The position numbers were made by a program, and so were the translations under genes. Under the pieces are notes generated by a model. The model had not been told where the DNA came from and did not search any database. It saw only the letters and a program-made list of their open reading frames with translations. Shown here piece after piece: positions 19,237-51,300 of a stretch of DNA of 64,000 bases. Source of the stretch: Diphasiastrum complanatum. Taxonomy: Eukaryota > Streptophyta > Lycopodiopsida > Lycopodiales > Lycopodiaceae. The DNA lies in contig CM055106.1 of the NCBI GenBank assembly GCA_029204225.1, positions 15,466,278 to 15,530,277 on the forward strand, read 5' to 3'. Position 1 is the first letter of the stretch. Each line of letters opens with the position of its first letter.

Positions 19237-22200
19237 CTGCATCCATCAATCAAATTGATGCATGAGTGCATGCATTTAACATTATAAAAAATGGTTGCCA
19301 AAAATGTCATTGAAGGAAAATGGGTTTGATGCAAGTACCTGGAAACCAGCGATACATTCCTTCAAGTCCACATATTTCCCTGGAGAACCTGTGAAAACCT
19401 CAGCTACATGGAAAGGTTGACTTAAAAAGCGCTGAATTTTTCTAGCTCGTGCCACTGTGAGCTTGTCATCCTCACTAAGCTCATCCATACCCAAAATAGC
19501 AATGATGTCTTGCAAATTCTTGTAATTCTGTAGGACCTTCTGAACACCACGAGCGGTGTTATAATGGTCCACACCCAGGATGCGAGGGGAGAGCATGCGA
19601 GATGTTGAATCCAGGGGATCTACAGCAGGATATATACCTAGCTCTGATATCTGGAAAAAACACAAAATGTTTGTGAGACCGTAATTTCTGTCATTGGACA
19701 GTTCCAGTTGAAATATCATTTCACCACAACGTACAAAAGTACAAACTCGCCATACAGAAAAGTTTTACTCTATAAATACAAACCTGTCGAGACAACACAG
19801 TAGTGGCATCAAGGTGAGCAAAAGTAGTTGCAGGAGCAGGATCTGTAAGATCATCAGCAGGGACATAAATAGCTTGCACAGAGGTAATGGATCCTTTTTT
19901 GGTAGTTGTAATTCTCTCTTGTAGACCTCCAAGATCAGTTGCTAAGGTGGGCTGATAGCCCACAGCAGACGGAATACGTCCCAAAAGAGCTGACACTTCT
20001 GAATTTGCCTGATAAACATTCAAAATGTATAAGCAAATACTGTGAGCCTACTTCCACAAGTGCTTCAACAGAAAAATTTCAAGATTTTCCACTAAGCATC
20101 AAAAGAGACTTCTTCTTGAACCCATAAGAGCATACCTGAGTAAATCGAAAAATGTTGTCAATAAAGAGCAAGACGTCTTGACCCTCTGCATCTCGGAAAT
20201 GCTCAGCCACTGTTAAACCGGTTAATCCAACCCGTGCACGAGCACCTGGGGGCTCATTCATTTGTCCATAAACCAAGGCACACTTGCTCTCACTCTGCAA
20301 AGTAAGATAACAGCTTCAGTACCAATCAATATCCAAAAACAATCTACAATTTTTATTCTGAGAACATTACCTGTTTCTCACCAAGCTTGATGACACCGCT
20401 CTCAATCATTTCTTTGTAAAGATCATTTCCTTCTCGTGTACGCTCCCCCACACCAGCAAAGACAGAAAATCCACCTAAAGAAAACCCAAAACTGCAGTCA
20501 GAACTTTCTACTCAAGAGACAGATCACATGGAACCATTGCCAAACAATTACCACATCACAACAGACAAACCATGGGCTTTTGCAACATTGTTAATGAGCT
20601 CCATGATAAGGACAGTCTTGCCAACGCCTGCTCCACCGAAAAGTCCAATCTTGCCACCTCGCTGATATGGTGCAAGAAGGTCCACAACCTGCTCCCTCAC
20701 CACAGCATACACAAACTCAAAATCATACAAACGTAAATACATGTTGGAGCAAAGAAACCAACAATTGATAAGACGCTTGGGAAATGAATGAAGTTAAAAT
20801 TCTGATAAAAAAACAGCCAACATTCTAACTCTACTATCAAACCACAGCTCCCTTCTGTACACATTGATTTTCTTCTGATTTGTCAGCACATTTTCTTGAA
20901 TTGAAAAAATAAGTGTTCACCAATGCCAAGAAAGACATTACCTGTATTTAATTATTTCAAAATTGATGCATGGCACTTTAGTTAATTATAACTATCTTTA
21001 ATAGCAGCTAAGCAAAGTACATAAAGCTATTTACATGCTACGATTAATAACACATGCAGAGAAGTTATAATAGGTTGTGAACGCGTTCCTAAGAATGGTT
21101 CCATGCCATTCCTAAGGAAGCCAAGGAACGGTTCCCATAGACATTAAGTCATTGTTTCCAGGAGCTTAACCATTCCTTAGGTCTTTTTTTATTTCCCAAC
21201 CGCCACCCCCTAAAACCCCTGTTATAACCTACTTCACAGAACCTAAAGCCCCTATTATTAGGAACAGTTCCACAGAAACGGAATGGCCGTTCCTAAGGCA
21301 TGGAACCATACCCGTCCCCAAAGAAAATCCTTAAGAACAGGCTTCTATGCGTTAAGCCCAGAAATAGCACCAAAGCAAATCCAAAAAGATGTACACTCCT
21401 CAGAGTTATCAACATTTCAGACACATCAGTAAGATAAGGTCATATATTTTTATCATTAGCAACTTGGCATTTGGATACACATGACCATCGGACTCCTAGC
21501 ACTAACTAGCTGGACCTCCTAGCCACCTATAAATAGCCCTCAGACTTCCTCACTTGACAGGCGGATTGCTTTCCAAGACTGATGTTTAGCTTTCTGGCTA
21601 CCATGGATTTGAGTCCTAGTACGGATTCCGGAATGAGGTTGAATTCTCCCCTGTGAGTAGGCTTCGTCAGTTTGACTCCCCACAAGCATTTGAATCACTG
21701 CTACCTGATTCTGAATATTGAACAGGTTTTAAGAAGAATCAGGACATGGTCACTTACTGATAAGTATAGACGACTCCTTGAGATCACATTGCAAGTAGCT
21801 TGACATATCATTCAATAATTGGTGCTTTAGAATATCTTTTAGCATGTCCAAAGGAGTTGAAAACAGAAACCTTTTCAAAATTCCTAAGGAACCCAAGGAA
21901 CGGTTCCCATAGACATTAGGTCATAGTTTCCAGGAGCTTAACCATTCCTTAGGTCTTTTTTTATTTCCCAACCGCCACCCCCTAAAACCCCTGTTATAAC
22001 CTACTTCACAGAACCTAAAGCCCCTATTATGAGGAACAGTTCCACAGAAACAGAATGGCCGTTCCTAAGGCATGGAACCATACCCGTCCCCAAAGAACGG
22101 TTCCATGCCATTCCTAAGGAACCCAAGGAACGGTTCCCATAGACTCTAAGTCATAGTTTCCAGGAGCTGAACCATTCCTTAGGTCTATTTTTATTTCCCA

Positions 22201-51300: not shown

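Follow-up and report, generated by a model that had tools for sequence, protein, structure and literature searches.

Very long introns are known from a fern and from conifers. In the fern Ceratopteris richardii, 17,745 introns longer than 10 kb and 706 genes longer than 100 kb are reported, and gene length in this species is uncorrelated with expression (PMC9477723). Pinus massoniana is reported to have 18,536 introns longer than 20 kb, checked with long reads, and its highly expressed genes tend to have longer introns (PMC12122422). In spruce, too, highly expressed genes hold more intronic sequence, and in spruce, as in other plants whose genomes are larger, a gene is described as having one or a few long introns (PMC4108047). 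A review of the subject reports that long introns have minimal influence on transcript accuracy (PMC9364684). Even in Arabidopsis, extremely large introns are composed mainly of transposons, and some have been confirmed by RT-PCR (PMC5575664). IBM2 and heterochromatic marks appear to counter premature polyadenylation within intronic elements of Arabidopsis genes (PMC4417168).

Here we describe a mitochondrial ATP synthase beta gene of the clubmoss Diphasiastrum complanatum whose third intron is filled largely by retrotransposon sequence. The gene lies in a window of 64 kb, by which we mean the whole stretch of DNA that was analysed, and all positions are those of the window.

Results

An intact gene of nine exons

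The exon-intron structure of the gene was rebuilt from the sequence and comprises nine exons on the minus strand, from 51300 to 19126. The exons below come from the rebuilt frame and intron 3 from the rebuilt borders.

50821..51300, minus strand: exon 1 (CDS), encoding the N-terminal extension and the first part of the beta-barrel domain
49592..49667, minus strand: exon 2
49317..49405, minus strand: exon 3, ending ...GTGIK|gtacaa
20689..49316, minus strand: intron 3, 28,628 bp, GT-AG, phase 0
20571..20688, minus strand: exon 4, 118 nt, with the Walker A motif GGAGVGKT
20371..20474, minus strand: exon 5
20136..20294, minus strand: exon 6
19784..20008, minus strand: exon 7
19339..19650, minus strand: exon 8
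19126..19236, minus strand: exon 9 with the stop codon

The joined exons form an open frame of 558 codons (557 residues and a stop), with GT-AG borders at 8 of 8 introns and the frame kept across the joins. Introns 1 to 8 measure, in order, 1153, 186, 28,628, 96, 76, 127, 133 and 102 bp, so that intron 3 stands at 28,628 bp against 76–1153 bp for the other seven. A preliminary description of this DNA had claimed nine in-phase exons, GT-AG borders, every catalytic motif and an intron 3 of ~28.6 kb at 20689–49316; all of these were recovered on rebuilding, with the coordinates of the intron exact and the other introns within 76–1153 bp. The ATP synthase beta gene of Nicotiana has an eight-intron structure. 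A scan of 4227 Rfam families gave no match at the gathering score, and ARAGORN found no tRNA.

The encoded beta subunit is full-length and carries the catalytic motifs. Residues 86–556 match the beta subunits of solved ATP synthases (best match 6rd4_X, E 2.8e-264), and the first 85 residues, which may include a targeting peptide, form an extension of variable sequence with many R, S and A. Intron 3 falls at residue 215, and the Walker A motif is at 233. The intron lies between the N-terminal part of the protein and the catalytic part with Walker A, a position that would suit a split gene, in which exons 1–3 and exons 4–9 are expressed as two transcripts that are either trans-spliced or translated into separate proteins. 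The intron nevertheless has normal GT-AG ends, and the exons stand in order on one strand. We know of no precedent for a split ATP synthase beta gene, and we consider such an arrangement exceedingly improbable.

Conservation of the two halves

Among the best 120 of 7996 matches scored, the closest full-length named relatives are two D. complanatum proteins, P0005 (93% identity over 100% of the length) and P0007 (92% over 95%), and named fern proteins come next at ~83–85% identity. The two D. complanatum loci are 05G089800 and 23G065200. Residues 86–215, encoded by exons 1–3, are identical to P0005 at 126 of 130 positions and to P0007 at 128 of 130. For residues 216–557, encoded by exons 4–9, the counts are 340 of 342 and 308 of 314, the latter including a few residues where the public protein reads into intron 8. 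Two positions in 86–557 differ from both D. complanatum proteins, and the first 85 residues are 68–69% identical to them. Since both halves match these proteins about equally over 86–557, exons 1–3 and exons 4–9 most likely belong to one conserved gene.

P0007 continues past exon 8 into sequence resembling the start of intron 8 here; this read-through occupies residues 521–528, at the end of the protein (D. complanatum 23G065200). It suggests that the P0007 locus has an intron 8 at the same position and that its last exon was missed in annotation. The gene described here may be a third, unannotated D. complanatum copy. Since the species has at least two such proteins among the matches listed, a sister copy may exist in this genome and could share the load.

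We also considered a misassembly, in which exons 1–3 and exons 4–9 come from different loci, for example sister copies, and were joined via repeats. Repeats do fill the space between the halves, and the residues that distinguish the D. complanatum copies favour no single copy throughout: before intron 3 they are mostly P0007-like, and after it they are mixed or fall where P0007 reads into intron 8. Compared at the positions that set these copies apart, the sequence speaks clearly neither for nor against a chimera of two sister copies. However, the 64-kb window contains no N, the phase-0 join is exact and both halves are similarly conserved. The target-site duplication of the gypsy element B and the nesting of the elements, described below, also make biological sense. 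Taken with these observations, a misassembly appears very unlikely.

A nest of gypsy elements in intron 3

The stretches that we assigned total 21,142 of the 28,628 bp of intron 3. Leaving aside the unclassified tandem repeat next to exon 4, element sequence makes up 19,347 bp (68%) of the intron, these being our own assignments from self-comparison, stop-free reading frames and Pfam and not the output of a repeat library. Of 66 stop-free frames of at least 70 aa outside the interiors of elements A and B, 63 were scanned against Pfam, the other three overlapping exons; shorter frames were read by eye only (139 frames have at least 55 aa). Thirteen families were matched at E ≤0.01 in the 63 frames: copia gag, gypsy integrase, the chromodomain, a reverse transcriptase with a single weak match, and coiled-coil and other host families, also at weak scores. 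Neither a LINE endonuclease nor a DNA transposase turned up in the 63 (of 66) frames scanned.

The bulk of the element sequence is one 18.5-kb nest of gypsy elements at 27556–46031, with the following parts.

27556..28398, plus strand: gypsy-like element D, gag part (by eye and repeats; Pfam gives no more than a weak match to SCAN)
28399..32284, minus strand: pol and 3' LTR of gypsy element A, the 5' part missing (Pfam, repeats)
32305..32923, plus strand: gypsy RT/RNase H remnant, probably of D (RVT_1 E 0.0079, under the curated cut-off)
32924..39142, plus strand: gypsy chromovirus B, 6219 bp (Pfam, LTR comparison)
40150..41835, minus strand: gypsy element C, with LTR, leader and gag start (repeats)
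41953..42372, plus strand: gypsy integrase C-terminus with chromodomain (Pfam)
42401..44907, plus strand: gypsy-like element D2, with LTR, leader and gag (repeats and by eye)
44920..46031, minus strand: inverted copy (81–84%) of the D2 LTR and leader (self-comparison)

Element B has two 358-bp LTRs that are identical base for base, and a GGTAT target-site duplication on both flanks. Given the identical LTRs and this 5-bp duplication, element B is a genuine insertion. Its insertion point is the junction of the gypsy RT/RNase H remnant and a copia gag remnant. One base after its 5' LTR lies TGGTATCAGAGC, which we take to be the primer site. The Pfam domains follow the order PR-RT-RNase H-IN with a chromodomain, over two overlapping frames, and the frame is broken within RNase H. 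The zinc-binding part of the integrase and the chromodomain score over their curated cut-offs; the integrase core (rve), at 21.5 bits, is under its cut-off of 32.6. We judge element B, the only insertion of the nest that can be dated by its LTRs, to be the newest and a recent one.

Older insertions seem to make up other parts of the nest. Element A starts where the gag-like frame of the older element D breaks off, and appears to sit within D. Element C is ~80–82% identical to element B. The weak RVT_1 match, at 32488–32874, belongs to the gypsy remnant and not to a LINE. The preliminary description had reported gypsy, copia, LINE and MITE-like elements of several periods in this intron. Pfam domains bear out the gypsy content, and nesting together with differing divergence among related copies agrees with insertion in several periods.

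Repeats also flank the gene within the window. Downstream, 16331–16869 is a GC-rich, strongly self-complementary tandem repeat with units of ~40 and ~83 bp. Upstream, 57214–63163 is more gypsy sequence: Pfam recognises minus-strand pol pieces, a plus-strand frame without a Pfam match shows zinc-knuckle-like motifs by eye, and a further fragment resembles element B at 69%.

Copia, LINE-like and tandem repeat sequences

Four further stretches of intron 3 were assigned.

21088..22882, no strand given: unclassified repeat next to exon 4, in a tandem duplication of ~1 kb (self-comparison)
23507..24430, minus strand: coiled-coil and RNA-binding-like frames, possible LINE ORF1 remnant
26839..27261, minus strand: putative copia RNase H-like remnant (by motif; no Pfam match)
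39148..39855, plus strand: copia gag remnant (Pfam Retrotran_gag_2)

The copia content was confirmed in part. The gag piece is recognised by Pfam, with two Retrotran_gag_2 matches (E 6.4e-14 and 7.3e-14) in the region 39210–39855, whereas the piece at 26839–27261 was named from a motif, presumably that of copia RNase H, and has no Pfam match. The LINE could not be substantiated: the frames at 23507–24430, possibly LINE ORF1 by their ORF1-like features, have no Pfam, PDB or named homologue. For a 117-aa frame within this stretch the single relative found was the unnamed protein P0241 (86% identity), for which neither Pfam nor PDB offered a convincing relative. The MITE-like element is probably the tandem duplication at 21088–22882, whose copies are 98% identical and are partly built of an unclassified 218–230-bp repeat. 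No clear terminal inverted pair was found in 20700–23300, the stretch searched for MITEs, and the MITE label was not confirmed.

An inverted pair of gypsy copies

The gypsy copies at 28404–32284 (element A) and 35208–39142 (element B) lie in opposite orientation and form a 3.9-kb inverted repeat that is 92% complementary, with ~2.9 kb between the arms. Its longest exact run is 116 nt, and of the 3872 21-mers in the A arm, 1020 are matched by an exact complement in the B arm. The preliminary description made no remark on this repeat. A second inverted pair, at 42401–46031, has arms of ~1 kb in pieces of 81–84%. If the intron is transcribed, both pairs could fold into long hairpins. It is conceivable that the excised intron would then steadily give rise to small RNAs by which this gypsy family is silenced, making the locus a hairpin-RNA trap within an essential gene. 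This reading is speculation that assumes transcription from the housekeeping promoter, and we regard it as very improbable.

Transcription and splicing

We assign a probability of roughly 0.88 to the reading that this is an ordinary nuclear gene with a spliceosomal intron 3, which grew by repeated retrotransposon insertion and is transcribed through and spliced out normally. Growth of the intron would be due mainly to nested gypsy insertions, the latest of them recent. Transcription would most likely run through the whole unit, and the normal spliceosome would excise the 28.6-kb intron. Intronic heterochromatin would probably be handled as in Arabidopsis, through IBM2 and heterochromatic marks acting against premature polyadenylation.

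Judged from its sequence, there is good evidence for one functional gene, and one functional gene would imply splicing across the whole distance. The 49317-to-20688 splice is predicted on this basis, and the strong transcription that the preliminary description ascribes to the gene is an inference. This copy need not be fully active, since a sister copy could supply the protein. The diverged parts of the nest suggest that the long intron and the intact exons have coexisted for some time, the divergence between copies (80–92% alike) not amounting to a dating of the insertions.

This coexistence bears on whether the gene is a recently silenced copy, which looks intact while the intron prevents productive transcription and the protein is supplied by another copy. 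Such a history would fit the presence of at least two D. complanatum proteins among the matches listed, and decay that followed the newest insertion would not yet show, given its identical LTRs. On the other hand, parts of the nest look older at 80–92% alike, so the long intron has probably lain beside intact exons for some time, and the protein is strongly conserved. We consider silencing unlikely, and retain the reading of a gene that is transcribed through and spliced.

Signals within intron 3 were also counted. Neither of two recursive splice site motifs, which would aid the removal of the intron, was seen in it (0 for both, against 0.1 and 0.4 expected). AATAAA occurs 15 times on the sense strand of the intron, against 12.1 expected from 50 base shuffles, and branch-like CTRAY occurs 130 times against 123.9; neither is in notable excess. 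The sense-oriented LTRs, those of elements A and C, could end transcription early.

Comparison with known systems

The element-packed long intron of this gene is a fair example of a structure that is already known and common in large-genome plants. Of the earlier interpretation, the part that holds is an intact gene in which one very long intron is packed with elements. Its further claim, that the gene is specially informative about tolerance of intron length, is weak, as long introns are common in Ceratopteris and Pinus massoniana, and highly expressed spruce genes hold more intronic sequence.

As at this locus, exceptionally long genes of Ceratopteris richardii arose via element insertion into introns; the Ceratopteris data differ in that they concern a fern and are genome-wide statistics, not a description of the ATP synthase beta gene (PMC9477723). 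Conifers likewise have one or a few long, repeat-bearing introns per gene, also in highly expressed genes, and introns longer than 20 kb are frequent. They are, however, seed plants, and the data reported are genome-wide or 35-gene surveys and not specific to this gene (PMC12122422, PMC9364684, PMC4108047). The IBM2-dependent genes of Arabidopsis resemble the present case in having intact retroelements within their introns, and those genes are transcribed; they differ in that the relatively long elements named for them are ~5 kb (PMC4417168). The extremely large introns of Arabidopsis are transposon-made like intron 3 here, but measure 5–10 kb (PMC5575664).

The case would be more than an example only if RNA showed how the intron is processed, or small RNAs from the inverted gypsy pair. 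To the structures known from these systems it adds one clear clubmoss example, in which a long intron packed with elements interrupts a core housekeeping gene and the newest insertion is young.
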